In this document: one piece after another, positions 3,007 to 43,032 of the stretch
Layout: each line of letters opens with the position of its first letter
Numbering within the stretch: the first letter of the stretch is position 1
From: a virus
Length of the DNA: 44,712 nt
Strand: one strand, 5' to 3'
IMG/VR virus record: IMGVR_UViG_3300032456_000338
Coordinates: 1 to 44,712 of that record
Notes under the pieces: model-generated
Told to the model about the DNA's origin: nothing
Seen by the model: the letters and a program-made list of their open reading frames with translations, nothing else
The model's database searches: none
Made by a program: the position numbers and the translations under genes

Positions 3007-3035
3007 AGATAACACTCTAATGATGAGAGCGTCAA
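3007..3035 (-). promoter_or_regulatory. Promoter with palindromic operator in the spacer (leftward)
   Basis: On the minus strand: TTGACG, a 17-nt spacer containing CTCTCATCATTAGAG, then TTATCT. It drives the 2736-2969 gene and overlaps the last codon of the upstream ribbon-helix-helix gene. Confidence 0.8.
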
Positions 3036-3765: not shown

Positions 3766-4166
3766 ATAAAAGCCAATATCAACCTAAAAAAGCTACCCCG
3801 TCACTGCCTGAACTAAACGCCTTTCCCCCATCCCCTCAAGAGCCTGTAGCCCCAGACTATAGAGGACAAAATTTGTCAGCTATTGCCTTAGAGGTAGCCG
3901 AGAAATCTAAGGATGCTGTGAGAAGTTTACAAGAACTAGATGATAAATTAGCCGGGTTTGAGAGCCGATTTGCTGATGCTGCTATTGATCGTATTGACTC
4001 AATGCCCGTGAGGATTGAACAGAAAATTGCACAGGGATTAGAGGCGCGGCAAAAAAGTCGGCAGAAAGCTGATTTAGGGGAAGTTTACGCTCTCATTGAT
4101 TCTCTCGTTATCCCTGGGTTTCCGATGGGTGTAACCGCTATGGGAGCGCTATCCGCTGGCTACTAA
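3756..4166 (+). CDS. Hypothetical proline-rich / helical protein
   Basis: A 136-residue protein with a proline-rich N-terminus (residues about 13-35), a helical middle with many charged residues (about 42-110), and a short hydrophobic Gly/Met-rich end. No signal peptide and no recognised family. ATG 3756 has AGGAG upstream and overlaps the end of the MerR-like gene by 10 nt, so the two are co-expressed. Confidence 0.6.
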   Translation: MPLDKSQYQPKKATPSLPELNAFPPSPQEPVAPDYRGQNLSAIALEVAEKSKDAVRSLQELDDKLAGFESRFADAAIDRIDSMPVRIEQKIAQGLEARQKSRQKADLGEVYALIDSLVIPGFPMGVTAMGALSAGY

Positions 4167-5475: not shown

Positions 5476-6003
5476 TTGAAACTAGCACTAATAGGTGTCT
5501 TGCTGCTAATAGCAGGTAGCAATTGTGACTTAGATTCTTGCAGTCCTTTCCAGTACCCATCTCAAGCAGACTCAGGGGCGAGGATTCCTGCTAAAACGCC
5601 ATCACAGCAAACCGAGCCAGCTATCGATAATCAAGCTCAAAAAACCGCTCAGAAGCCTGTCGGGTTCATCATGCCTCCAATCATCAGGGGCAAGTGTCAA
5701 CTGTCAGGCGCGGCTGAGTACAACCCCAACACGAATACGATCCATTTATGCATAGAAATGACCCAGGCTCAAGAACGGTACGCGATCGCTCACGAAATGG
5801 GTCACGCGGTCGATTTTCAGAAAGATAGTGAATTTGAGCCTGATGAAGAGTACTGGGCGGATCAATATGCCGTAAACAGTCTGCTTCAAAATGGTGACTG
5901 TGAGGCGGTTGAATCAAGGGCTGTGAGCCACATTGATATCAAAGATGACTACACAAAGGGCATTCTCTACGCTCGTGAAATGTATTCTATCCACTGTCGA
6001 TAA
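5476..6003 (+). CDS. Secreted or lipid-anchored zincin metalloprotease (HExxH)
   Basis: A 175-residue protein beginning at TTG with AAAGGA upstream. The N-terminus is a hydrophobic export signal (KLALIGVLLLIAGSNC); the Cys could be lipidated, but the lipobox is not canonical. A Pro/Gln-rich linker precedes a catalytic domain with AHEMGH (HExxH zinc site, about residues 109-113) and EEYWADQYAV about 20 residues later. This Glu/Asp-rich helix matches the third-ligand region of ImmA/IrrE-like zincins. Function outside the cytoplasm, perhaps on envelope proteins, is an inference. Confidence 0.7.
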   Translation: MKLALIGVLLLIAGSNCDLDSCSPFQYPSQADSGARIPAKTPSQQTEPAIDNQAQKTAQKPVGFIMPPIIRGKCQLSGAAEYNPNTNTIHLCIEMTQAQERYAIAHEMGHAVDFQKDSEFEPDEEYWADQYAVNSLLQNGDCEAVESRAVSHIDIKDDYTKGILYAREMYSIHCR

Positions 6004-6025
6004 AACACTAAAGAAAGGAGTCCAA

Positions 6026-6184
6026 ATGTACGTAATTAGAAAAGGTTCAAAATACCTGAAAACCAAAGAGGGAGGCTGGGTAGGACACCCTATGGACAGT
6101 ATCGGAACATCTTCAAAAGAAGTAGCCGACGAATGGGCAAAGAAACATGGTGGAGAAGTTGTATCTTTCAATTTTGGCGATTGA
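6026..6184 (+). CDS. Small hypothetical protein
   Basis: A 52-residue protein. ATG 6026 has a strong AAAGGAG 6 nt upstream; longer in-frame starts would overlap the preceding protease gene. A short beta-rich N-terminus (YVIRKGSKYLKTKEGGW) is followed by a helix (SKEVADEWAKKHG). Function unknown. Confidence 0.6.
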   Translation: MYVIRKGSKYLKTKEGGWVGHPMDSIGTSSKEVADEWAKKHGGEVVSFNFGD

Positions 6185-11966: not shown

Positions 11967-12227
11967 ATGACCTTTGAAGAACGAGCAGAAGTCTATAAAG
12001 AATATTTTGAGTCTAAAAAAATATTCTTAGATTCTCCAGAGCTAGGGTATTACAGACACATCGCAGCAGAAAAGCGTTTAGATGTCATGTTTGCTGATCC
12101 GTTGAATCGGTTTGACGGATTCGAGAAGCTGTCGCATTCCCGTAGACAACCCCAATTAACACGCCAGTTAACCGATCTAATAATTGACAACTCTAATGAT
12201 GAGAGTGTAAGATTGAAAAAGACCTAA
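11967..12227 (+). CDS. Hypothetical protein
   Basis: An 86-residue, mostly helical, charged protein with no recognised family. Its last ten codons encode the next promoter with its operator, so the C-terminal sequence is shaped by that site. The stretch after each of the two promoters (GATTGAAAAAGACCTAAGCA) is the same, which shows that the promoter and leader were duplicated as a unit. Confidence 0.6.
   Translation: MTFEERAEVYKEYFESKKIFLDSPELGYYRHIAAEKRLDVMFADPLNRFDGFEKLSHSRRQPQLTRQLTDLIIDNSNDESVRLKKT
12184..12213 (+). promoter_or_regulatory. Promoter with palindromic operator in the spacer
   Basis: TTGACA, an 18-nt spacer with TCTAATGATGAGA, then TAAGAT. It is embedded in the 3' end of 11967-12227 and drives 12276-13379. 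Confidence 0.8.
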
Positions 12228-12275: not shown

Positions 12276-13379
12276 ATGAAGATAGTAACATTAAATAAAA
12301 CCACGCTGACATCTCTTTTCAACTCCGACCTAGGCGTGTCTGCCAATGGTGAAGAGACGTATAAACTAAAAATGACGGCTGACCGCTTCTCAACTACCGA
12401 GCTTTTACTGCTCGATAGTTTAGCTAAAACTTTTGGTGTAACCCCAGAACACTATGGTGTTCTCAGTGTAAAAGACACACAAGTCGAACGTTTCGAGTAT
12501 CCCACTGTTATCAAAAACTCGGAGGGTGTTGTAGGTCTTCAGTTAGGGTCTGAGTTTATTCCCTACCTTCTAGTCGGTGAGAAAACAGTAACGATTAAAG
12601 ATAAAGAAAAACAAGTACCGATTTGGACACTAAACGGCGTTGAGGTCTACTTTAGCGAATTTACCTACAAAAACCCTAAAAACCCCTCGGAGGACATTAA
12701 AGCGCCGATCATGATCGTTGAGTCGGAAAATGATTTGATTTTCCACATCCAGTTGAGGGTTAACCAAAAGCCGAATGACGCTGCAAAAGTAAAAGAAGGA
12801 GAAAAGTATTATAATCACACAGCTTTCAATAAAGCTGTAGTAAGTTACGACGAGGAAGCGGTTAACTCCGCTATCAGATCAAACTATGAGTTTGGCAAAA
12901 GCGTCAACATCGGTCGCCTTTTTAGCGATAGTTTCAGAGCGGGAAAATTTCCACCTGATGGGATTTGCATTCCTGTTTCGGGTTTTTCAAAAGTTCCTTC
13001 TACAAATCCTAAATACGAGGATTCGGGTGCTTTAACGGTAGACCTAACAAAAGCCTGGTTCACCGCGTCTGGCAACCTTTTACCGGTCTTCACAGTTTCG
13101 GTGAAACGTGCTGGCGTAGAAACGCTAGTGCAGACCGACGATATAACCGGGTTGTACGTGAGTGCGAACCATACAGCATACAAGAATGCGATCGCGTTCC
13201 TTGCAGCGGATAAGATTCCCACTGAGGAATCTCCTTGGATTTTGCGGATAACAGCACCAAACTCAAACGGCGAATTTGATCATGTTCCGGATCATGGTCT
13301 GTATTCGCTAGAAACTGCATCCAGAATCAAGAAGATTGCTGCACATATGCCGCTAGCGTTAACTGCTGCTGCTGAATAG
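12276..13379 (+). CDS. Hypothetical protein in the replication cluster
   Basis: A 367-residue soluble protein with mixed beta strands and no signal peptide or membrane segment. The first 110 residues are rich in strands (GEETYKLKMTADRFSTTELL; VERFEYPTVIKNSEG). The middle has an insertion rich in Lys/Pro (FTYKNPKNPSEDIK), and the C-terminus is helical and Ala-rich. No catalytic motif stands out. It has its own strong operator-controlled promoter, sits just before the helicase, and may be an abundant DNA-metabolism accessory factor, such as a single-strand-binding type. That suggestion rests on position only. Confidence 0.65.
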   Translation: MKIVTLNKTTLTSLFNSDLGVSANGEETYKLKMTADRFSTTELLLLDSLAKTFGVTPEHYGVLSVKDTQVERFEYPTVIKNSEGVVGLQLGSEFIPYLLVGEKTVTIKDKEKQVPIWTLNGVEVYFSEFTYKNPKNPSEDIKAPIMIVESENDLIFHIQLRVNQKPNDAAKVKEGEKYYNHTAFNKAVVSYDEEAVNSAIRSNYEFGKSVNIGRLFSDSFRAGKFPPDGICIPVSGFSKVPSTNPKYEDSGALTVDLTKAWFTASGNLLPVFTVSVKRAGVETLVQTDDITGLYVSANHTAYKNAIAFLAADKIPTEESPWILRITAPNSNGEFDHVPDHGLYSLETASRIKKIAAHMPLALTAAAE

Positions 13380-13416
13380 ACTGTTAAGGGAGATCCTAGG
13401 ATCTCCCTTAACAGTC
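13379..13416. terminator. 38-nt perfect palindrome
   Basis: The segment reads the same on both strands: arms GACTGTTAAGGGAGATCC and its complement meet at the centre TAG/CTA of CCTAGG. It starts at the stop codon of the previous gene. A long stem with almost no loop is expected as RNA. There is no T-run after it, and the right arm runs into an operator-like sequence. It may be a terminator or a binding site. Confidence 0.6.
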
Positions 13417-13434
13417 TAACGAATAGAGTATAAA
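13408..13434 (+). promoter_or_regulatory. Degenerate operator promoter before the helicase
   Basis: TTAACA, a 15-nt spacer holding TCTAACGAATAGA, then TATAAA. The spacer is short and one half-site is imperfect, so this is a weaker member of the series. It lies 18 nt before the helicase start. Confidence 0.5.
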
Positions 13435-13451: not shown

Positions 13452-14900
13452 TTGAATCTTCCACCTTTGAGAGAATACCAGCGAGAACTAAAACAGCGAT
13501 TACTAAAGAACGAGGGGACGAACGTAACAGCCCAACAACCGACGGGGACAGGAAAAACGCTAGTCTTGTTAGACTTAGCATTAAATTGGGTAGAGAAAAA
13601 CCGCGTAGTTCTGATAATAGTTCCAACGATTGAGTTAATCCGGAATCTAGAATACGATCTTAAACGGTTTGCGCCGTTTATTTTTAAGCATTTCTATGGA
13701 GTTATTAACTCAAAACTCGGAAAATTTCAACGTGGCAAACGGTTATACGTCGGAACCTTTGGATCGATTATGAAGTACGCAGACAAGATCAAACCTGATC
13801 TTGTGATTAATGACGAAAGCCATCACACATCAGCTACGATTTGGTCATCAATTTTAGATCACTACTCTGCATCATGGCAAGTGGGTTTCACGGCAACTCC
13901 CATCAGATTTGATGGAAAGAGCTTAAAAAAACGTTTTCCTGTTTTACTTGAATCTCACCCGGTGTCCTGGTTTATCGAGCAAGGTTTTTTATCGGATTAC
14001 GAAATCCGAAATGATGGGCAAACCAACGCACGGTTTTCTGCAACTGTAGATAACCTGAAAAAACAGCAGGGCATTTTTGATCAATATGACTTGGTAGGGG
14101 ATGCGGTTAAAAACTATAATCGTTTTGGCAACGAAAGAAAAGCGATCGTATTTGCAACAGGAAAAGAACACGCGAAACATCTTGCAACACAGTTTGGCAA
14201 TCAAGCTAGATGTATTCTTGGCGATACTCCAGAGCGATCTCAGTGGCTAGAAGAATTTGATTCTTCTCAAGATTATCCGATCTTAACAAACGTTAGCGTG
14301 ATCACAGAGGGAGTCAATCTCAAAAACGCTAAAGTCGCACAACTTTGTCGGCATACTTGCAGCCTGTCGTTGTACTTACAAATGGTAGGCAGAGTTCTAA
14401 GACCAGTGGAAGGACTTAAAGCTTTGATCTTAGATCACGCGGGTAATGTGGATTTGCACGGTGAACCGAAAGATTTTATCGACTGGCAAGCGCTGTACAA
14501 TAAACCCGAAACAGAGTTACCAGAATCTTTTGATCCCACAACGCTTTACTATAACTGTTCAGCTTGCGCCGCACCTTTGTGTTCATTATTAGAGTCAAAA
14601 TCAAGAACTCAAATCGAGTGCCCACACTGTGAACATATTAATCTACTTGCCAGGTTAAGCGAAAAACAGCTAAGGTCGCTACAGATCTCGGATCATTTGT
14701 TAGTGGAATATGAATCTGTCAGCACTGAAATTAGACAGCTAAGTCGAATCATCAACGATGGCAGGATGTTTAAGTCAAAGAAAATAGAAGCTATCGTTAA
14801 CTTAAAAATGGCTTCACCTGATCAAAAATTAGCTGCGCTGATCTCACTGGGAATCAATCAAAATTTAGCGAGAAACGTTTACCTAAAGGGAGAATTTTAA
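13452..14900 (+). CDS. Superfamily II DNA/RNA helicase with zinc ribbon
   Basis: A 482-residue protein beginning at TTG. It shows motif Q-like PPLREYQRELKQRLL, Walker A QQPTGTGKT (about 29-37), motif Ia VPTIELIRNL, DExH box NDESHH (about 119-124), motif III GFTATP, motif V-like TNVSVITEGVNLK, and motif VI-like QMVGRVLRP. A four-Cys ribbon (CSACAAPLC ... CPHCEHI, about 370-400) follows, then a helical tail. This is the layout of phage SF2 replication or recombination helicases (UvsW/RecG-like size class). It stands directly upstream of the polymerase and is probably the replication or repair helicase. Confidence 0.9.
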   Translation: MNLPPLREYQRELKQRLLKNEGTNVTAQQPTGTGKTLVLLDLALNWVEKNRVVLIIVPTIELIRNLEYDLKRFAPFIFKHFYGVINSKLGKFQRGKRLYVGTFGSIMKYADKIKPDLVINDESHHTSATIWSSILDHYSASWQVGFTATPIRFDGKSLKKRFPVLLESHPVSWFIEQGFLSDYEIRNDGQTNARFSATVDNLKKQQGIFDQYDLVGDAVKNYNRFGNERKAIVFATGKEHAKHLATQFGNQARCILGDTPERSQWLEEFDSSQDYPILTNVSVITEGVNLKNAKVAQLCRHTCSLSLYLQMVGRVLRPVEGLKALILDHAGNVDLHGEPKDFIDWQALYNKPETELPESFDPTTLYYNCSACAAPLCSLLESKSRTQIECPHCEHINLLARLSEKQLRSLQISDHLLVEYESVSTEIRQLSRIINDGRMFKSKKIEAIVNLKMASPDQKLAALISLGINQNLARNVYLKGEF

Positions 14901-15187
14901 TGGCTGAGTTTTTTATTTCGGTTCAAGGTAAAACACCACAAGAAGTAGTGAAATGTTCTGTAGAAGGAACAATCATCGGCGATCTAGGTATTCACAAGTA
15001 TGGTAAAAATTGGAGGATTACCGATGTTCCTTCGGGTCTAAGAGTTTGGGATTTTAGGTTGAAAAAAGACGCGGTTAAAGTTGCTAAAACTGTTTTAGCA
15101 TCACAGCATCCTAAAAAAGTTGGCAACTCTCATGCTGATCTTTGTTGGAGAGAAGAACTCAAAAAAGCTTTAAGAGAAATAGAATGA
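14900..15187 (+). CDS. Hypothetical protein between helicase and polymerase
   Basis: A 95-residue protein whose ATG overlaps the last base of the helicase stop and whose end overlaps the polymerase start by 4 nt. The N-terminal half is beta-rich (EFFISVQGKT, TIIGDLGIHKYG) and the C-terminus helical and basic. Strict coupling to the polymerase suggests a replication accessory factor; no motif is recognised. Confidence 0.6.
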   Translation: MAEFFISVQGKTPQEVVKCSVEGTIIGDLGIHKYGKNWRITDVPSGLRVWDFRLKKDAVKVAKTVLASQHPKKVGNSHADLCWREELKKALREIE

Positions 15188-17202
15188 AAATCTTTAACAC
15201 TGAGTCACAAATTTTAACTGATTGGTCAACTCTTCCACGGGATTTAGAGATAGCCATCGATACAGAAACCACCGATCTCGATCCGTTCAAGGGGAAGATC
15301 CGACTGCTACAGATTTATTTTCCGTCAGTGGACAAGGTAGCTGTTTTGGATCTTTGGAACAAAACACAGCAACAAGAAACCTGGTTAAACCATTTTCTTG
15401 CTCGTTATCTAGCCAACAAATCAATCAAAAAATATATGCAAAATGGTTATTTTGACTGTTCTTGGTTCCGTGTCCATTTTAACATTTTAGTCGAAAACAT
15501 TTGTGATACTCGGTTATTATCACAAATCAAAAAAGCGGGTCAATACGACGCTTATCTATTCAATCTAAAAGAATCATCACCAAATTCTTTACGCTCCCTG
15601 TCTCAGGAATACGGAGCTACTCACGATAAAACAGAACAGTCTTCAGATTGGTCTAATCCTAACTTGACTAAATCTCAACTAGACTATGCCGCAAAAGACG
15701 CTTACTACACTTACTGGATAGGGAAAGAACAGGAGGAAGAATTAGCCGAACACAAAGCTGTTTGCGATGCTGAAAACGGATCTTTACCAGCGTTTGTGGA
15801 GATGTGGTATCGCGGTTTACCTGCTGATTGGTTAGCATTAAAAAACCTTGCTAAGAGCTATGAACAAGCTGCTGTTGATTCTAAGTTAAAGCTTTCTGGG
15901 TTGATGGATGAAAATCCGGTGCAGAAACAAAAGATTCTAGATTATAAACAGAATTCATTACTAGGGGCAAAATGGCAAACAAAGAAAAACGCTTTTAACG
16001 TTGCCAGCCCCCAGCAGGTTAAAGCTTATCTCGTCCAGGAATTTGGACAGCAATCGATTGAAAAGTGGGATAGCAAAACGAGATCCACTAAAGAATCAAC
16101 AGGAAAGGATGTACTTTTTTCGATTTACTCTGAAAATTTAGACAGAACAGATTTACTCGATATCATCGCTTTTCGAGGAGTATCAAAAGCATCCAGCACT
16201 CTCAAAAGTTATCTTGGATCATATGACCCTGAACGAGGTTGTTTGCAAACTGCCTACAGTGTTTTAGCTTCTCAAGGGATGGGTAGATCATCGTCGGGCG
16301 ATCGCAGTCGAAAGGATGTCCAAAATGTGCAAAACATTAGCAAACATCTATCGAGCCACAAAGCCTTTAAGCTAGACCCGGTTCGGTCTTTTGTCAAAGC
16401 TAGACCAGGTTACACGCTATTAGAAATTGATTTGAGTGCTAGCCATGCTCAATTCGCTAGACATCTATCTAATGATGAGTCACTGCAAGAAGCGAAAAAC
16501 ACGGGATTAAAGCTGCATTACTATACGATGTCAGCAATGCTTGGCTTTAGTGGTAAACAAGTCACGCCGCAAGATTGTGTAGCGTTAGCAAAAGGCGACT
16601 ACTCGCTAATCTACAAACTGAGCAAAACCGTTTTCTATTCTTTCTTAAATTATGCTGGAGCAGCCACACTACAACAAACCTTTTTTAAGAATGACTTGTT
16701 TGTATCTTTGGAGGATTGTAAAAAGTACTTAGAAGCTTGTGCTAACCGTTTCGCAGGTTTGAGGCGTTTTCAGAATAAAATGTTTGCTTTAGCAGATGGT
16801 CGTAGACACGCGGTACACACGAAAGACGGTCGATTCTTAGGAGTGTTTGGTTTTTCTGAAACTTGCGACGGCGGTAAAATCTGGCATCAAAAGCCCCAAT
16901 ATTCTGATAATCTTAAAATCAGCGAAGTGGTTTCGAGCCACTGGCTCAGACCCGAAGCCACAGTGATGAAAAGATCGTTAGCTCGTGTTGTTAGTTTGGC
17001 TAAAAGTCTGGATCTAAACCGTGTTCGTTTGGTCAATTTTAGCCATGATTCCGTTTTAATTGAATGTCAAAACAACCTGATTGATAAGGTTCTCCCAGAC
17101 TGTTGGTATATTATGATCCAAGAAATGCAGAAATTTGTGCCTGACTATGAACCCGATGATCCGATAGAATCGTGCATACTCAAAGAAAACTGGACACTCT
17201 AA
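15184..17202 (+). CDS. Family A DNA polymerase with 3'-5' exonuclease
   Basis: A 672-residue protein. The N-terminal DnaQ-like exonuclease has DTETTD (Exo I, about 30-35), NGYFDCSWF (Exo II) and DYAAKDAYYTYW (Exo III). The polymerase half has motif A LLEIDLSASHAQFARHL, motif B KLSKTVFYSFLNYAG (with the fingers Lys and aromatic residues) and motif C FSHDSVLIE. Motif C reads HDS instead of the usual HDE. The start is ATG 15184, overlapping the previous stop; a longer in-frame start lies inside that gene. There is no 5'-nuclease domain, as is usual for phage Pol I-like enzymes. It replicates the element. Confidence 0.95.
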   Translation: MKIFNTESQILTDWSTLPRDLEIAIDTETTDLDPFKGKIRLLQIYFPSVDKVAVLDLWNKTQQQETWLNHFLARYLANKSIKKYMQNGYFDCSWFRVHFNILVENICDTRLLSQIKKAGQYDAYLFNLKESSPNSLRSLSQEYGATHDKTEQSSDWSNPNLTKSQLDYAAKDAYYTYWIGKEQEEELAEHKAVCDAENGSLPAFVEMWYRGLPADWLALKNLAKSYEQAAVDSKLKLSGLMDENPVQKQKILDYKQNSLLGAKWQTKKNAFNVASPQQVKAYLVQEFGQQSIEKWDSKTRSTKESTGKDVLFSIYSENLDRTDLLDIIAFRGVSKASSTLKSYLGSYDPERGCLQTAYSVLASQGMGRSSSGDRSRKDVQNVQNISKHLSSHKAFKLDPVRSFVKARPGYTLLEIDLSASHAQFARHLSNDESLQEAKNTGLKLHYYTMSAMLGFSGKQVTPQDCVALAKGDYSLIYKLSKTVFYSFLNYAGAATLQQTFFKNDLFVSLEDCKKYLEACANRFAGLRRFQNKMFALADGRRHAVHTKDGRFLGVFGFSETCDGGKIWHQKPQYSDNLKISEVVSSHWLRPEATVMKRSLARVVSLAKSLDLNRVRLVNFSHDSVLIECQNNLIDKVLPDCWYIMIQEMQKFVPDYEPDDPIESCILKENWTL

Positions 17203-17218
17203 TAAGTAGGATGAAAAG

Positions 17219-17608
17219 ATGAGTCAGGCTAAACTGATAAAAGATTTGAACGGTCTGAAAAATTTTGCAGCAGTGTACTCAACAAATTTTACTCTAATAG
17301 TTTTTTTCAGGCAAAAAATTGAGGATGATTGTCTGTGGAATGTTTCCTACTGGGATTGCTTGAAACAGCAGTCAGCGCATAATCACAAACATAATTCTCA
17401 CGGGCTGTATTCTTATTTGATCGTTGTTAATCTCACGCGAGATTACAACATCAGAGAAAAGACTTATCAAAAACTCAGACAGTGGCTACCTACACCTGAG
17501 CAACTGGTAGCGACACAAAATGATGATCAAGATGAAGAATCGGATGCAGGCATAGCTGCGTGGTGTTCAGGAAAAACCGACAAAGTAAGAGGTATCACCA
17601 TTGATTGA
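17219..17608 (+). CDS. Hypothetical protein after the polymerase
   Basis: A 129-residue protein. Alternating strands (FTLIVFFRQKIEDD, LWNVSYWDCLK, YSYLIVVNLTRDY) followed by a helix and an acidic linker (NDDQDEESDAG). The region around QSAHNHKHNSHGLY is His/Asn-rich. No family recognised. Its 3' end overlaps the start of the NblA gene by 8 nt. Confidence 0.6.
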   Translation: MSQAKLIKDLNGLKNFAAVYSTNFTLIVFFRQKIEDDCLWNVSYWDCLKQQSAHNHKHNSHGLYSYLIVVNLTRDYNIREKTYQKLRQWLPTPEQLVATQNDDQDEESDAGIAAWCSGKTDKVRGITID

Positions 17609-17774
17609 TTTAACGCAAGAACAAGAATTTGAAATCGCTAAGATGAAGACTTACGTTGGTCAAATCCCCAGACAAAATTTGGAGGAAATGCTCTTAAGCA
17701 TGATTACCCAAAATATGGTAACAAGGAACTGCTATTTAGAACTTCTGAAAAAATACATGGGAGCTTCTCGATGA
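17601..17774 (+). CDS. nblA: NblA-like phycobilisome degradation protein
   Basis: A 57-residue protein starting at TTG with AGAGG about 9 nt upstream. It follows the NblA pattern across its length: IDLTQEQEFEI at the N-terminus (family: I-x-L-x-x-E-Q-x-F), a helix leading to a V-x-x-I/M turn, LEEMLLSMITQNMV, then RNCYLELLKKY (family: R-x-x-Y-x-E-L-L-K). NblA is a small helical dimer that binds phycobiliproteins and ClpC and targets phycobilisomes for proteolysis. Copies are known in freshwater cyanophages (for example Ma-LMM01), where they act as auxiliary metabolic genes. It overlaps the genes on both sides, so it is co-expressed with the DNA polymerase operon. Confidence 0.88.
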   Translation: MIDLTQEQEFEIAKMKTYVGQIPRQNLEEMLLSMITQNMVTRNCYLELLKKYMGASR

Positions 17775-18106
17775 AAAATCCAGCAACAAAAGAACAGGCT
17801 GAAACCAATCAAAACGATGAAAGCTTTGTTTATGATCTTGTGATCAAAGACATAGGAGATCGCGTCAATGTCGGGAAAAAAGCATACGGTACGCCATTAC
17901 AACCGTTTAATGGCAGATCGGCACTTGTCGATTTATACCAAGAATTGATTGATGCCTCTTTCTATATCAGACAAAAAATAGAGGAAGATGATCAACTGCT
18001 GACACTGATAGATGACATCAGCATCCTAAAAGATAGAGGAGATTTGCCGGGGCTGTACAAAGCAATCGACCGCCTAACGATTTTAAGAAGTAGATTGACA
18101 GTCTAG
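17771..18106 (+). CDS. MazG-like phage protein
   Basis: This 111-residue protein contains VYDLVIKDIGDRVNVGKKAYG-type helix followed by PLQPFNGRSALVDLYQELID and ASFYIRQKIEE. The spaced acidic residues in YQELIDASFYIR recall the metal-binding helix of all-alpha NTP pyrophosphohydrolases (MazG/dUTPase-like), and the KYGTPLQPxNGRxALVDLYQE block occurs in many phage proteins. It could clear or alter nucleotide pools. Catalytic activity is uncertain. ATG 17771 overlaps the nblA stop by 4 nt. Confidence 0.55.
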   Translation: MKNPATKEQAETNQNDESFVYDLVIKDIGDRVNVGKKAYGTPLQPFNGRSALVDLYQELIDASFYIRQKIEEDDQLLTLIDDISILKDRGDLPGLYKAIDRLTILRSRLTV

Positions 18107-18123
18107 ACTCTAACGATTAGAAT
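18095..18123 (+). promoter_or_regulatory. Promoter with palindromic operator
   Basis: TTGACA, a 17-nt spacer with GTCTAGAC and most of TCTAACGATTAGA, then TAGAAT. Here the operator reaches into the -10 box. It drives 18154-18695. Confidence 0.85.
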
Positions 18124-18153
18124 GGTCTTAAGACAAAACAGAGAAGCACAAAA

Positions 18154-18372
18154 GTGAAAAACGCCATGAATGTTTATGAGCCACTGCCCGAATACAGCCT
18201 TGACACATTTGGCATTTACACAGACGTATACGAAACAGAGACAGGAAAGTACGTTGGCTCTATTATCAAAGATAAAGAAATCTACTGGGTATTCATAGTC
18301 AAGTCAATCAGACCGAACGTCAAAACGCAGTCGTTTAAGTCAGCAATCCTACACCTCAACGCAACACCATGA
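18154..18372 (+). CDS. Small hypothetical protein
   Basis: A 72-residue protein beginning at GTG 18154 (an ATG at 18166 is the alternative). It is beta-rich (FGIYTDVYETETGKYVGSII; IYWVFIVKSI), without Cys motifs or membrane segments. It overlaps the next gene by 4 nt. Function unknown. Confidence 0.6.
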   Translation: MKNAMNVYEPLPEYSLDTFGIYTDVYETETGKYVGSIIKDKEIYWVFIVKSIRPNVKTQSFKSAILHLNATP

Positions 18373-18695
18373 AACGCATTACATACAAGAAAGCACGAGC
18401 GCTGATCACTGAAGAGTTAGACCTCCACACAGCCATCGAAGACCAAGTGTCACATGAACCAGGTGTTGTTTTGGTTACATCAGGCAACAGAGTCGAAGTG
18501 TGTGACTGCTCATATGACCTACGAGACTTAATACGTAGGATAGTGGATAACCTACGGTACAGCACGTCTTACACACCGAGAGTCTTTTTTGTTCAAACAG
18601 ACGTAGACGTGAATGACATACATAGCGCACTACTTAGCGACGGTATCATGAACATGATCTTACCAACATCAGAAATACCTAAGACAATGACGTAA
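18369..18695 (+). CDS. Small hypothetical protein
   Basis: A 108-residue protein with an N-terminal helix (YKKARALITEELDLHTAIED), strands (GVVLVTSGNRVEVCDCS) and a helix DLRDLIRRIVDNLRY. It is translationally coupled to 18154-18372. No recognised family. Confidence 0.6.
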   Translation: MKRITYKKARALITEELDLHTAIEDQVSHEPGVVLVTSGNRVEVCDCSYDLRDLIRRIVDNLRYSTSYTPRVFFVQTDVDVNDIHSALLSDGIMNMILPTSEIPKTMT

Positions 18696-18714
18696 ACTAA
18701 TTTTAAGAAGTAGA

Positions 18715-18743
18715 TTGACAGTCTAGACTCTAACGATTAGAAT
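18715..18743 (+). promoter_or_regulatory. Promoter with palindromic operator (second copy)
   Basis: Identical boxes to the 18095 copy: TTGACA, a 17-nt spacer, TAGAAT. It drives the SWIM-protein gene. Confidence 0.85.
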
Positions 18744-18780
18744 GTTCTTAAGACGAGAAACCAAAACAGAGAAACCCAAA

Positions 18781-19200
18781 ATGAAAGACCTAAAGACTTC
18801 TTCATACTCTTTACAAGATTTAAGCTTAGCGATCGCTGATAAAATCGGTTTGCTAGTAGCTGTCAAATCTTGGCAGTTTATGAAAAACGGTTGTTTGTTG
18901 GTGTGTTACCGAGTTTTATCAAGCGGTCGGAACTGTGCAACATTCTTATCGGTCACGGTTGCCTTAAGAGCCAAGATGAAGAGAATTGTAGAGAGGTCGA
19001 AAAAGGTGACATTCACTCATCAAGGTTTGACCTCAAATGGGTACAGAGTTAGTTTAAGAGGTTGTTCTTGCCCTGCTTATCGAGATACGAAAACGTCCAT
19101 GAAAGTCAGCGGAACAACAGTGTGCAAGCACACGATTGCATACGCTAAATGCTTTTTAGGGTGCCAGTCTTTGAGTGAGTTTGTTTTGAAGGTGGGTTAA
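18781..19200 (+). CDS. SWIM zinc-finger protein
   Basis: A 139-residue protein whose C-terminal third has CSCPAYRDT...VCKHTIA: the C-x-C...C-x-H pattern of SWIM zinc fingers, which bind DNA or proteins. The N-terminal part is beta-rich. An in-frame ATG at 18742 overlaps the -10 box, so ATG 18781 is used as the start. It is followed by the next gene after one base. Confidence 0.75.
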   Translation: MKDLKTSSYSLQDLSLAIADKIGLLVAVKSWQFMKNGCLLVCYRVLSSGRNCATFLSVTVALRAKMKRIVERSKKVTFTHQGLTSNGYRVSLRGCSCPAYRDTKTSMKVSGTTVCKHTIAYAKCFLGCQSLSEFVLKVG

Positions 19201-19201
19201 G

Positions 19202-19693
19202 ATGGAAAATTGGTTTGACATTGTACAACGAGCAGCCCAACACAGATTGTTTAGTGATTTGATAGATGAACAAATCACACTAAAAGATCCGCAAACTAAA
19301 CGTTTATGGTTTTCTATTTGGGCTTCAGATATTGCCTATGCCTCTATTGAATTTGAGAAAGCTGCTACGGATGAAGAACGATCTTGTGAGGCTGGAACCG
19401 TTTTGTTGGGTATCTCAGCTTGTGCAATATTAGTCGGGTTAACACAAGATGATATTTTGACAACATCAAAATATCATACTTTTCAATCTCTAAGTTACCA
19501 TGCAATGACTTTTAGGGATTACGCTAAAAAGTTTTATAGAGATAATAGTGAATTCGATCTAGGACTTTTCAAATGGTTACTTGGGAATGTTGCAGCCCGT
19601 TTATCGGAAGACATCGGACTTAACCAAGCCTTAAAAGCAGTCGATCAAAAATTGAAAAAAGACTCGATTAACCCATTGACACTCTTATCATAA
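19202..19693 (+). CDS. Hypothetical helical protein
   Basis: A 163-residue protein that is almost entirely helical, with no signal peptide. A weakly hydrophobic helix (EAGTVLLGISACAILVGL) is probably buried and not membrane-spanning. No family recognised. Its final codons contain the next operator promoter. Confidence 0.6.
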   Translation: MENWFDIVQRAAQHRLFSDLIDEQITLKDPQTKRLWFSIWASDIAYASIEFEKAATDEERSCEAGTVLLGISACAILVGLTQDDILTTSKYHTFQSLSYHAMTFRDYAKKFYRDNSEFDLGLFKWLLGNVAARLSEDIGLNQALKAVDQKLKKDSINPLTLLS

Positions 19694-19704
19694 GAGTCTA
19701 GAAT
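19676..19704 (+). promoter_or_regulatory. Promoter with variant palindromic operator
   Basis: TTGACA, a 17-nt spacer with the perfect palindrome CTCTTATCATAAGAG, then TAGAAT. It overlaps the end of 19202-19693 and drives 19744-19974. The leader again carries GTCTTAAGAC. Confidence 0.88.
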
Positions 19705-19743
19705 GGTCTTAAGACGAGAACACCAAACCGAGAAAAAAACATT

Positions 19744-19974
19744 ATGACTAACCAAAATCAATCAATCTACCCCGATGGCATCAGGGAAGCAGTAGAGGCA
19801 AATACCGAGCGCTTAGAAGGCTACACTTTGATCACAATCATTCAAGGTGGGCTTGATGTAAATAAGGTAAAAGTAGCTCTTTTCAAGCGCCCTCATGCAG
19901 GCAGCAACGAATTCGCAGCAACCGACATACTCGCGATCGATTCACGCGGAATGATTAGTGAAATGCCTGTTTGA
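19744..19974 (+). CDS. Small hypothetical protein
   Basis: A 76-residue protein: a helix (DGIREAVEANTERLEG) and then strands (YTLITIIQGGLDVNKVKVAL; ATDILAIDSRGMI). No recognised family. The only gene directly after the 19676 promoter. Confidence 0.6.
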   Translation: MTNQNQSIYPDGIREAVEANTERLEGYTLITIIQGGLDVNKVKVALFKRPHAGSNEFAATDILAIDSRGMISEMPV

Positions 19975-19994
19975 AGCTAATCAATCGTTCAAGC

Positions 19995-20018
19995 GATCGC
20001 CCATTCAACCGGGCGATC
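19995..20018 (+). terminator. HIP1-associated hairpin
   Basis: GATCGCCC and GGGCGATC form an 8-bp stem with an 8-nt loop after the 19744-19974 gene. There is no T-run. It partly consists of a HIP1 octamer, so it may not be a true terminator. Confidence 0.4.
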
Positions 20019-29626: not shown

Positions 29627-29651
29627 TGGCGATACCGATTATTGTTTGAAA

Positions 29652-30011
29652 ATGGTTGAATTACTCAGCACTCGAATAAATAGAATTTGTAAAGCCTTAA
29701 ATAAACAGAAATTTACAAATACTAAAATCGCTCGATTGTGTGGTTACTCTGCACAGTCGGTAATGTTTTGGTGCAATGGTTCTAAGAGAGTTCCACAGTC
29801 AGCGGTGGAAGCGATCGCCCGTAAAATCGGTAGCACTGCTGAAATCATTCTGGCTGACACTCTGCAAGTCACCGGTAAAAAAGCGTTAACAAACTATTCA
29901 AACTGTTGTTACTGGAGAATTACTGAGCTTAAAGAATATCAAGGGTTAACACTAGAAGAAGTGAAAACAATTCTTGAATGGCGTGAAAAAAATCCTGACT
30001 GGGAGCCTTGA
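29652..30011 (+). CDS. Helix-turn-helix regulator
   Basis: A 119-residue protein. The N-terminal 70 residues form a Cro/CI-type HTH: INRICKALNKQKFTNTKIAR, then LCGYSAQSVMFWCNGSKRVP, and QSAVEAIARKIG. The C-terminal half (RITELKEYQGLTLEEVKTIL) is a second, unassigned helical part. ATG 29652 is preferred; a TTG two codons earlier is possible. It could be the repressor of the element-wide operator, but there is no direct evidence. An operator promoter lies at its 3' end. Confidence 0.65.
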   Translation: MVELLSTRINRICKALNKQKFTNTKIARLCGYSAQSVMFWCNGSKRVPQSAVEAIARKIGSTAEIILADTLQVTGKKALTNYSNCCYWRITELKEYQGLTLEEVKTILEWREKNPDWEP

Positions 30012-30360: not shown

Positions 30361-30389
30361 TTGACATTCTCATGATGAGAGTGTTATCT
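30361..30389 (+). promoter_or_regulatory. Promoter with palindromic operator
   Basis: TTGACA, a 17-nt spacer with the palindrome-like TTCTCATGATGAGAG, then TTATCT. It drives the 30430-31502 small-protein genes. The leader starts TTTAGGACATGG. Confidence 0.9.
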
Positions 30390-30704: not shown

Positions 30705-30971
30705 ATGGAAGTTAAAATGGAAGTCAAAATGTTAAGAGAATATAAGGTCACACAAGTTGATCTTGACGGTTCTTTTGCGGGTGAATATTTCAGCGGAGAT
30801 CAGCTTTACGGTTCTTTTGTGGCTGAATATTTCAGCGAAGATCAAGAAGTTACTATCACATTTAATAATGGAAATTTTGTGGATCTTTCGTTAAACAATT
30901 TAGAGAGTTTGGTAAAAAATTTAGATGGTTTGTCTCTGCTCTATGAGGAAATCAAAAAGAGATCCGATTGA
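30705..30971 (+). CDS. Small acidic protein, second tandem paralogue
   Basis: An 88-residue paralogue of 30430-30609 with an internal duplication: EYFSGDQ and EYFSEDQ each follow a GSF-A segment. The C-terminus repeats the LNNLESLVKN...LYEEIKK pattern. The 5' end holds two nearly identical 12-nt units (ATGGAAGTTAAA, ATGGAAGTCAAA) and then another ATG, giving three in-frame starts. ATG 30705 follows AGAAGGA. Confidence 0.65.
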   Translation: MEVKMEVKMLREYKVTQVDLDGSFAGEYFSGDQLYGSFVAEYFSEDQEVTITFNNGNFVDLSLNNLESLVKNLDGLSLLYEEIKKRSD

Positions 30972-31006
30972 AATCGAAATGGGGATCGCAAACAGAGGGA
31001 TTCAAA

Positions 31007-31207
31007 ATGGAAGTTAAAATGGAAGTCAAAATGTTAAGAGGGTATAAAATCACCCAGGGGGATCTTGAGGATGATCTAGAAGCGGAATATTTCAGCGGGG
31101 ATCAGGAAGTTAATATCACATTTAATAATGGCAATTTCTTAAAGATTACGTTGAAGAACCTAGAGGTTTTGGCGATGCTCTGGGCAGAAATCAAAAAGCC
31201 GATCTAA
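31007..31207 (+). CDS. Small acidic protein, third tandem paralogue
   Basis: A 66-residue paralogue with the same first 11 residues as the second copy except for one change, and the same EYFSGDQEV and ITFNNGNF motifs. It lacks the internal duplication. The start ATG 31007 follows GAGGGATT. The 5' flank of about 45 nt is shared with the second copy, so the duplication covers gene and upstream DNA. Confidence 0.65.
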   Translation: MEVKMEVKMLRGYKITQGDLEDDLEAEYFSGDQEVNITFNNGNFLKITLKNLEVLAMLWAEIKKPI

Positions 31208-33058: not shown

Positions 33059-33088
33059 TTGACAAACTAAACTAGAATCGCTTAATAT
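33059..33088 (+). promoter_or_regulatory. Rightward promoter of the first cys-rich small gene
   Basis: TTGACA, an 18-nt spacer, TAATAT. The spacer does not carry the standard palindrome; the operator sits 3 nt upstream. It gives a leader ACAAAACAGAGAAAACACG before ATG 33118. Confidence 0.75.
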
Positions 33089-33117
33089 TGGAATATAGAC
33101 AAAACAGAGAAAACACG

Positions 33118-33357
33118 ATGGCTGATTCAACTTCTAAGAAATATTCATTGTACTTCACTGAGCGTTGCTACGACGCTGGCTACCACTATAAAAATACTAA
33201 AAAACTACCAAAGACTGAGATCGTAGACGGTATTCGCATTCAAGTTCTCGATAGCACTGAAAGACCCGGTTGCCTGTTTGTAGAAGGATGGGAAAAAGCG
33301 AGAGAATTAGAAAGATGGGAAAAAGCCAACAAATCAGGATCGGCATTCTTTGGATGA
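33118..33357 (+). CDS. Small protein, first of two paralogues
   Basis: A 79-residue protein. ATG 33118 is chosen over ATG 33088 because the latter overlaps the -10 box. It shares with the next gene the pattern SLYFTERCYDAG, KLPKTEIVDGIRIQV, ST-x-x-P and FVEGWEKAR. No known family. Confidence 0.6.
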   Translation: MADSTSKKYSLYFTERCYDAGYHYKNTKKLPKTEIVDGIRIQVLDSTERPGCLFVEGWEKARELERWEKANKSGSAFFG

Positions 33358-33362
33358 GAGTG

Positions 33363-33391
33363 TTGACAAACCTTTTTAGGTTTAGTACAAT
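33363..33391 (+). promoter_or_regulatory. Promoter with a different palindrome in the spacer
   Basis: TTGACA, a 17-nt spacer with AACCTTTTTAGGTT, then TACAAT. The spacer palindrome differs from the standard operator, so this promoter may answer to another regulator or have lost the site. Confidence 0.7.
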
Positions 33392-33418
33392 TAGAATAAC
33401 ACCAACGGAGAAAACACA

Positions 33419-33613
33419 ATGCTTTCGACTTCCTCCAGCTACGACCTATTTCTTACCGCTTGCTACGACGCGGGTGTTCTACACGGCACAAGCCCAAAAC
33501 TGCCCAAGAAAGCCGTTGTAGACGGCAAGACAATCCAAGTCACGGGAAGCACTGGAAGCCCTTCATACTGGTTTGTGAGAGGTTGGAAAACTGCTAGGAA
33601 ATCGGTACGCTAA
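33419..33613 (+). CDS. Small protein, second of two paralogues
   Basis: A 64-residue protein aligned with 33118-33357 (LFLTACYDAG, KLPKKAVVDGKTIQV, FVRGWKTAR). The 3' end overlaps the terminase small-subunit gene by 20 nt on the opposite strand. Function unknown. Confidence 0.6.
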   Translation: MLSTSSSYDLFLTACYDAGVLHGTSPKLPKKAVVDGKTIQVTGSTGSPSYWFVRGWKTARKSVR

Positions 33614-38593: not shown

Positions 38594-38875
38594 TCAGCGT
38601 CCTTTAGCAGCACTCCAAATGACTATGAAGTTTGAACTATAAGTTTCGACTAATGCCTTTAACCCGTGCAGCACAATGACAAACATGAATTCAGAACAGT
38701 GATCTTGAAACTCAAGATCTGAAACGTACTTAATAAACATCCTAGCTCCAACACGTTGATTCATTGGAAAACCCAAAACTTCTAACTTTTCAGTGAGTAA
38801 GGAGTTAGCTTTAACGCAAACTATATTGTCTTCTATAATTTGAAAATCGGAAACTGAAATATCTTGAGTGTTCAT
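38594..38875 (-). CDS. Small protein, paralogue of the upstream gene
   Basis: A 93-residue protein. AAGGA lies within the first codons of a longer in-frame start (38890), so ATG 38875 is used. It shares VSDLE-x-QDH, FP-x-(N/D)Q-x-(V/I)G-(A/S) and a late hydrophobic strand with 38941-39261. Function unknown. Confidence 0.6.
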   Translation of the reverse strand: MNTQDISVSDFQIIEDNIVCVKANSLLTEKLEVLGFPMNQRVGARMFIKYVSDLEFQDHCSEFMFVIVLHGLKALVETYSSNFIVIWSAAKGR

Positions 38876-38923
38876 TTTGTTTTCCTTCATTGGTTATTCT
38901 CGGCTGCGATCGCCGTCTTCTCG

Positions 38924-38952
38924 ATTGTATACTCTAATCGTTAGAACGTCAA
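38924..38952 (-). promoter_or_regulatory. Leftward operator promoter
   Basis: TTGACG, a 17-nt spacer with TCTAACGATTAGA, TACAAT. The operator sits over the last codons of the 38941 gene. It drives 38594-38875. Confidence 0.88.
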
Positions 38953-39261
38953 TCGAAACCGGTTTTCAAAATGATCTAGCTCTACCAGTGCGGGAAGTGC
39001 AGCGCTGGAAATAATGATATCGGGAGAGTCACAACTTTCAACTACAAAAGATCTTAAAGATTGCAGCATTATTTTAAGTACCAAGTCCACATGATCTTGA
39101 GTTTCGAGATCTGATACGTAACTAAGGAATGCTTCAGATCCGATACACTGATCCACTGGGAAGTTCCGAAATTTTAACTTATCGACAAACTCAGTATTAA
39201 CTTCGACTCGAACTGTGTTGATGTCAAGATCGTGAGTAACTTCAAAGCGTGTATCATTCAT
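38941..39261 (-). CDS. Small protein, paralogue of the downstream gene
   Basis: A 106-residue protein aligned with 38594-38875 over residues about 20-90 (VDKLKFRNFPVDQCIGSEAF; YVSDLETQDH). The C-terminus is longer. The start overlaps the previous stop by 4 nt. Function unknown. Confidence 0.6.
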   Translation of the reverse strand: MNDTRFEVTHDLDINTVRVEVNTEFVDKLKFRNFPVDQCIGSEAFLSYVSDLETQDHVDLVLKIMLQSLRSFVVESCDSPDIIISSAALPALVELDHFENRFRLTF

Positions 39262-39476
39262 TGGTTATTCTCTGTGAAAGTAACAATACCGCCTTGCTTT
39301 ACTGACTTGCGCCAAACCTGATACGATCCGCCAAAACGATAGATTTTTTCAACGGTAGGAAGAGACTCATTTGATTTATTTAGTTCTAAAAGTTGTAGCA
39401 ATTTCTCGTTTGTGGCTACGCGATCGTTGTTGTATATGGCATTAAGCAGGTCATAAAAAATATCTTGAGTGTTCAT
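39258..39476 (-). CDS. Small hypothetical protein
   Basis: A 72-residue protein whose first residues (MNTQDI) and leader (AAGGAAAACAAA before ATG) are the same as those of 38594-38875, indicating a shared or copied translation start. The rest differs: a helical first half (LLNAIYNNDRVATNEKLLQL) and a basic end. No operator is seen directly upstream. Confidence 0.6.
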   Translation of the reverse strand: MNTQDIFYDLLNAIYNNDRVATNEKLLQLLELNKSNESLPTVEKIYRFGGSYQVWRKSVKQGGIVTFTENNQ

Positions 39477-39528
39477 TTTGTTTTCCTTCATTTTATCGAG
39501 AATTTGGGTTGAACTGCGATCGCTGTCT

Positions 39529-42213: not shown

Positions 42214-42254
42214 AAAAAAGTCCCTAAGTGCTGAAACACTAGGGACTTTTTTTT
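42214..42254. terminator. Bidirectional intrinsic terminator
   Basis: AAAAAAGTCCCTA and TAGGGACTTTTTT pair, with an inner loop AGTGCTGAAACAC, T-runs on both strands. Confidence 0.9.
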
Positions 42255-42321
42255 GTTCTGCCTAATATCCTACTTTTTGGTATATAATACAAATAAGAAC
42301 GTTATTAGCTCCCCACACCCT

Positions 42322-43032
42322 ATGGAAAGCATTCAAAGCTACTTACAGCAAAAGGTTAGATTTCATTCAGACAAAGAAAAAGAAGTCGTACATATGATGG
42401 ATTTTGCAAACGTCCTGGGTTTACCCAAAAACAGCAGGGACATTACCGCATTAGTTTGGAGAGAATACAGGACTCGACTGCCAGATGGTGTGGGTAAGCC
42501 CTCATGGTGGGTTAATGAGTCAGGCATCTATCAAATGATTTTTGCTTCTGAGCAGAGTAAAGCTGTGGAAATTCAGCGATGGATATTTGAGGAGGTTTTG
42601 CCAGCTATCCGAAGAGACGGAGCTTTCATAGATGAGCATCGCATAACAGATCCTCAACTGGCTAAGGTTTCCAATCGCATCAAACAGATGCAGCAAGAGC
42701 GACTAGCCGCTCGTAAATCTTGGACAGACCAGGTTAAAAAGCGTCTAATAAAGGATGGCTTGTATCACACGACAAACGGGACGGGAAAAGTGATCACAAC
42801 AGCATATTCTAAAAACGTCTTCCGCAGCCTAACCGTAGAAGTCAACGAAGTACTTTTCAACCGTAGACATTTCTATTGCGATCGCTCTGCATTTATGGAG
42901 GTTGATCAGCAAGAAATCATTACCCAGTTTGAAATTGAGTTAGCAGCATCAGCTAGAGAATATCCCGATGAACCGATTGAGAAAATCGTTGCGTTGGCTT
43001 TGGACAAAATCCTAGAGGTTCAACAAACTTAA
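42322..43032 (+). CDS. Bro-N-type antirepressor
   Basis: A 236-residue protein. The N-terminal half has the BRO-N pattern: MMDFANVLGLPKNSRDITAL, WWVNESGIYQMIFASEQSKA, VEIQRWIFEEVLPAIRRDG. BRO-N proteins in phages act as antirepressors or DNA-binding regulators. The C-terminal half is helical with a basic region (QMQQERLAARKSWTDQVKKR). ATG 42322 is taken as the start, since an upstream in-frame start lies in the terminator. A TATAAT at about 42283 is the likely -10 box. It is a candidate antagonist of the repressor that binds the widespread operator. Confidence 0.85.
   Translation: MESIQSYLQQKVRFHSDKEKEVVHMMDFANVLGLPKNSRDITALVWREYRTRLPDGVGKPSWWVNESGIYQMIFASEQSKAVEIQRWIFEEVLPAIRRDGAFIDEHRITDPQLAKVSNRIKQMQQERLAARKSWTDQVKKRLIKDGLYHTTNGTGKVITTAYSKNVFRSLTVEVNEVLFNRRHFYCDRSAFMEVDQQEIITQFEIELAASAREYPDEPIEKIVALALDKILEVQQT

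Follow-up and report, generated by a model that had tools for sequence, protein, structure and literature searches.

The question raised by this locus is whether a phage keeps, among its own replication genes, a gene for breaking down the antenna of its host. NblA signals the host to dismantle the light-harvesting antenna. An earlier note had read a very short frame as an nblA gene inside a DNA polymerase operon. We analysed the whole stretch in which it lies (the window: 44,712 nucleotides, positions 1 to 44,712 of IMG/VR record IMGVR_UViG_3300032456_000338).

Gene content around the short frame

The genes from 13452 to 18106 all lie on the plus strand and are tightly packed; they are listed here with the gene before them:

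12276..13379, +, 367-aa ORF, first gene past an operator-bearing promoter (weak match, phrog_36548 0.0018)
13452..14900, +, SF2 (superfamily 2) DNA helicase (PF04851 1.2e-23; phrog_16 6.2e-69)
14900..15187, +, 95-aa ORF between helicase and polymerase, function unassigned
15190..17202, +, family-A DNA polymerase (polA) with 3'-5' exonuclease domain (PF01612 5.9e-25; PF00476 1.6e-19; phrog_17 5.1e-45)
17219..17608, +, 129-aa ORF, overlapping nblA by 8 nt (ORF call)
17601..17774, +, nblA, NblA-family proteolysis adaptor (PF04485 match, codon composition, AlphaFold2 helices)
17771..18106, +, 111-aa protein, ATGA overlap with nblA (phrog_22538 7.6e-14; phrog_7609 2.4e-12; phrog_139 4e-4)

With nblA two genes past polA in this co-directional run, the description of the gene as lying inside the DNA polymerase operon is a fair one as far as layout goes. 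The polymerase has its relatives among the polymerases of cyanobacterial plasmids (22-26% matches) and of large cyanophages, and shows no relative at 1e-20 among 386 cyanobacterial genomes. The 129-aa ORF has no significant family in Pfam, PHROG or NCBIfam. With phage dNMP kinases (phrog_139) the 111-aa protein shares just their C-terminal domain; its other matches are to phage families of unknown function.

The short frame has the 57 residues and the TTG start given in the earlier note, and ends on a TGA stop. The overlaps with both neighbours claimed there are also present; read directly from the sequence, they measure 8 nt upstream (17601-17608) and 4 nt downstream (ATGA, 17771-17774). A Shine-Dalgarno-like AAGAGGT stands at 17587-17593 on the plus strand, with 7 nt between it and the TTG. 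Codon composition scores 0.28 bits per codon, against 0.24 +/- 0.09 for true genes and -0.07 +/- 0.12 for wrong frames; none of 2,525 wrong-frame segments reaches the score of nblA.

Membership of the NblA family

Pfam PF04485 (NblA) matches the 57-aa protein with 35.4 bits (gathering score 25, E 1.5e-8), aligning residues 3-51 to positions 1-49 of the 50 in the profile. The profile search proposed earlier is therefore significant, and the NblA pattern indeed runs over the whole length; it is the sole PF04485 match on the record. We also built a profile from 122 cellular NblA sequences only, leaving out the window protein and all phage sequences. On this profile the window protein scores 37.4 bits, NblA of Ma-LMM01 38.3 and NblA of PaV-LD 35.7, while the highest score among 20,000 shuffled sequences with the window protein's composition is 16.0.

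A short frame with a TTG start in a coding-dense region invites the suspicion of a chance open frame, or of a chance profile match. This explanation is refuted by the shuffle and codon-composition tests: the profile score far exceeds that of the shuffles and codon use is coding-like. The Shine-Dalgarno-like site and the tight overlap with both adjoining ORFs also argue against it. On these combined grounds 17601-17774 is a real gene.

The narrower NCBIfam naming model for the NblA equivalog, NF045916, gives 27.7 bits (E 2.3e-6) against a cut-off of 100, so we file the protein at the level of the Pfam family only. Its identity to cellular NblAs is at most about 40%, and activity is for that reason not assured. 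Diverse NblAs vary so much that their alignment could not be used as a scan query. In size the protein is typical: NblA averages 63 aa (PMC4103541), and 57 residues fit a small protein of about 60.

For the residue comparison three solved NblA structures were found by sequence (PDB 3cs5, 1ojh and 2qdo). L4, E7, Q8, F10 and V19 are invariant with respect to the NblA of Anabaena, S. elongatus and T. vulcanus, and L31, Q37, Y45, L48, L49, K50 and G54 are additionally common to the window protein and Nostocales NblA. NblA has a conserved N-terminal motif for ClpC binding and a C-terminal one for phycobiliproteins (PMC4103541). Both motif regions are retained in the window protein, the first with L4, E7, Q8 and F10 and the second with Y45, L48, L49 and K50. 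We take L48 and K50 to align with L51 and K53 of Anabaena NblA, which are reportedly contacts to phycobiliproteins.

The structure prediction, also suggested by the earlier note, agrees with this assignment. In the single-chain AlphaFold2 model (pLDDT 83.6) helices at 6-19 and 24-53 form a helix-loop-helix, the layout also predicted for a bona fide NblA used as control (helices 9-21 and 27-56). A Foldseek search of the PDB returned no NblA match for the window model, and the control came back equally empty. A weak sequence match of the protein to a C-type lectin in the PDB (3jqh) was rejected as a repeat artefact. At the level of sequence, then, the family, the reality of the gene and its operon position can be regarded as established.

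The phage and its host

The record is a linear virus contig of 44.7 kb with genes for TerL, TerS, portal, head protease, major head protein and endolysin; it comes from a tailed phage with a cyanobacterial host. The host assignment follows from two observations. HIP1 (GCGATCGC), commonly frequent in cyanobacterial genomes (PMC4390886), occurs at 44 sites against 0.39 expected. The best relatives of TerL are found in a prophage of a cyanobacterial genome (G149; 44-46%) and in Microcystis phage Mae-JY22 (about 40%). Lying on a cyanophage genome, nblA is a phage-borne auxiliary metabolic gene.

Scans of IMG/VR with NblA, the DNA polymerase, TerL and the major head protein brought up no close relative of the phage. 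The same holds for a tblastn search of phage records and a scan of genome contigs, both with the window NblA; a distant-DNA search with 15000-20000 returned no relative. The idea of a phage-plasmid was considered, and a 590-aa P-loop protein on the record gave no plasmid match. Elsewhere on the record (30705-31207, 33088-33613 and 38594-39491) we observed runs of small adjoining genes that resemble duplicates of one another, for example with MEVKMEVKML... and MKENKMNTQDI....

A repressor-like HTH regulator is encoded at 29646-30011 and an Ant-like antirepressor at 42253-43032. Together with the operator-bearing promoters described below, these genes suggest that the phage is probably temperate. 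Temperance is something we infer, given that no integrase was found on the linear record, which may be incomplete.

Operator-bearing promoters

A 13-bp palindrome with the consensus TCTAAYSRTTAGA recurs in some 17 sigma-70-like promoters on the two strands, where it lies between the -35 and -10 boxes or overlaps them. These promoters are found at positions 3016, 10295, 11919, 12192, 18109, 18729, 19683, 30015, 30368, 35204, 35577, 37011, 37109, 37248, 38933, 39867 and 40232. Exact palindromes number 12 on the record (0.00 expected), and 30 are counted when up to 2 mismatches are allowed (4.0 expected). An exact match to the extended operator pattern is absent from IMG/VR. The elements around the replication genes are:

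12184..12213, +, promoter-like TTGACA-N18-TAAGAT with palindrome TCTAATGATGAGA in the spacer, candidate promoter of the nblA transcription unit
13380-13415, +, intergenic inverted repeat ACTGTTAAGGGAGATCCTAGGATCTCCCTTAACAGT of 36 bp with no run of T, adjoining the operator
13415-13427 (in 13380..13433), +, operator TCTAACGAATAGA with weak promoter elements, directly before the helicase gene
18095..18123, +, TTGACA-N17-TAGAAT, the next operator-bearing promoter 3' of nblA (from the sequence)

The promoter at 12184-12213 heads the 367-aa gene that precedes the helicase. The inverted repeat at 13380-13415 is a candidate terminator or protein-binding site. The 30-mer at 18095 is identical to that at 18715. 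A separate observation concerns two plus-strand ORFs, at 30372 and 35581, which open with the near-identical peptides MMRVLSLGHG and MIRVLSLGHG because the frames begin within repeated operator-promoter DNA; the starts listed there are probably not real.

The recurrence of the palindrome in promoters, taken with the repressor-like HTH protein and the Ant-like antirepressor, suggests a phage-wide repressor regulon in which nblA and polA would be silenced together. The nblA, helicase and polymerase genes would accordingly be shut off jointly in a lysogen and released jointly. Judging from the layout and the shared promoters, it is plausible that nblA expression is timed with DNA synthesis.

Viral nblA genes in other settings

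Phage NblA is established for Ma-LMM01, MaMV-DC and PaV-LD, with bleaching on expression in several cases (PMC4103541, PMC9602691). For Ma-LMM01 and PaV-LD either the phage bleaches its host or the nblA gene is active when expressed (PMC4103541, PMC9602691, PMC5780444). That phage copies are known was correctly stated in the earlier note, but their range extends beyond a few freshwater cyanophages to podo- and myoviruses from marine and estuarine waters (PMC9602691). Our scans of IMG/VR with two NblA types yielded 26 and 3 contigs with an nblA relative.

The Microcystis myoviruses Ma-LMM01 and MaMV-DC resemble the window in the family of their NblA (38.3 bits for Ma-LMM01 against 37.4) and in the overlap of nblA with a gene for DNA synthesis. 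This is nrdA in Ma-LMM01, as also described in PMC4103541, where nblA lies in a region of DNA-processing and nucleotide genes with early-type expression. The neighbour is therefore a ribonucleotide reductase gene in these phages and DNA polymerase in the window. They also differ in being large lytic myoviruses, with an NblA that falls elsewhere in the tree.

Planktothrix phage PaV-LD and 26 related IMG/VR loci likewise share the family and an overlap with a nucleotide gene; in PaV-LD and the three related loci inspected, nblA overlaps the thymidylate kinase gene (tmk). Expression of the PaV-LD protein in Synechocystis leads to phycobilisome degradation (PMC4103541). This type nonetheless belongs to another NblA clade, with other neighbours and an unrelated genome.

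The T7-like cyanopodoviruses S-SRP01, S-CBP1 and S-TIP37 have an nblA-like gene in the replication region past the DNA polymerase, as in the window. It overlaps an exonuclease gene downstream of the polymerase; mazG (where annotated in these three) and/or ribonucleotide reductase follow in cyanopodoviruses. The proteins group weakly with that of the window, but are very divergent (9.7-17 bits on the cellular profile), and these phages are lytic. In S-TIP37 the NblA-like frame that overlaps the end of the exonuclease gene (L171, about 4001-4147) is unannotated.

The prophage in genome G149 (L154-L155, C1 about 2653500-2671600) has a related head module: besides TerL (44-46%), its portal, head protease and major head protein are related to those of the window. 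It also carries an nblA-like gene (L155:1055-1249) within a packed run of small genes, whose product is 29% identical to the window NblA and scores 35.3 bits on the NCBIfam model. Unlike in the window, this gene is not beside polA, of which no relative was found in genome G149; it lies one ORF past a PD-(D/E)XK nuclease and near the serine integrase (phrog_95) at which the prophage ends.

In all, neighbours of nblA were read in seven settings. Two further IMG/VR loci belong here. In L208 (IMGVR_UViG_3300042518_001688) nblA at 5971-6183 overlaps the gene of a 778-aa protein, followed by thyX; this protein has a B12-dependent ribonucleotide reductase domain (nrdJ), at a match just below the model cut-off. 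In L207 a thymidylate-synthase protein (thyA-like) is encoded downstream of nblA. Exceptions to the DNA-synthesis neighbourhood are L206, a weak candidate in S-EIV1 and a candidate in a Nodularia phage. Placement of nblA beside genes for DNA synthesis thus recurs in several unrelated phages. The coupling to replication genes proposed for this locus is consequently correct but not special to this phage.

The Nodularia candidate deserves a separate remark. Gp151 of vB_NspS-kac65v151 (L174:2956-3186), 76 aa and labelled 'hypothetical protein', is a sub-threshold but clear NblA match: 23.6 bits in Pfam (cut-off 25) and 28.1 bits on the cellular profile.

In the NblA tree the window protein groups weakly (82/89) with the copies of the G149 prophage and the podoviruses, near the S. 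elongatus type. On this tree the phage label has to change several times, and proteins this short cannot resolve the origins.

Proposed mode of action

We consider it likely that the product of the window gene is a functional proteolysis adaptor of the NblA family, used by a probably temperate cyanophage. Its activity, partners and benefit we infer from NblA biology. In a productive infection nblA would be co-expressed with the helicase and DNA polymerase genes of the replication region. The protein may pair with itself or with host NblA to act as a helix-loop-helix dimer, a four-helix bundle in this family, whose C-terminal helix (YLELLK) would bind phycobilisome rods and whose N-terminal motif (LTQEQEF) would bind the host ClpC chaperone. 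Through this recruitment of ClpC, Clp would degrade the antenna; amino acids and nitrogen would be freed and excitation pressure lowered while phage DNA is copied. In a lysogen, a repressor on TCTAAYSRTTAGA within the promoters would keep nblA silent.

The high divergence from cellular NblA also fits a different role, and here lies the main rival. The protein could descend from NblA yet work as a decoy. Either by forming dimers with host NblA or by taking up phycobilisome sites while recruiting no ClpC, it would prevent the antenna from being broken down, and light harvesting would then continue during infection. Many cyanophages try to maintain photosynthesis, and a partner could be poisoned where, according to the title of a reference cited in PMC7966870, some cyanobacteria need an NblA1/NblA2 heterodimer. 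However, the conserved motifs for ClpC and for phycobiliproteins are both retained, and the phage NblAs tested to date cause bleaching (PMC9602691). We regard such a decoy as unlikely.

Adaptors can also change cargo, and the homologues of short-tailed phages have moved far off the family core (9.7-17 bits). The family match might thus be genuine and the protein nevertheless deliver some other host protein to Clp, leaving phycobilisomes unaffected. Unlike those distant copies, the window protein still has the core of the family, and its C-terminal binding helix is preserved too, which makes this very improbable. The adaptor that targets the antenna remains our preferred reading.

Implications

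Viral nblA genes were already known; what is new is a phage lineage without a close relative in the collections searched. The analysis adds this lineage, the recurrent link to DNA-synthesis genes and the putative operator regulon. Phage NblA is thereby extended to a new cyanophage lineage with a likely temperate control system, and phages of several unrelated kinds have nblA beside genes for DNA synthesis.

A broader interpretation can be offered, though tentatively, as a possibility that slightly more speaks against than for. In this presumably temperate cyanophage nblA and DNA polymerase would be under the same repressor operators, so that the prophage spares the antenna and induction couples bleaching to replication. 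The repeated placement of nblA in overlapping units with genes for DNA polymerase, nuclease or dNTP synthesis in unrelated cyanophages might then reflect that antenna breakdown and phage DNA synthesis are generally linked. This raises the question whether the antenna is dismantled mainly to feed replication, through nitrogen, amino acids and relief from light, at the onset of DNA synthesis.
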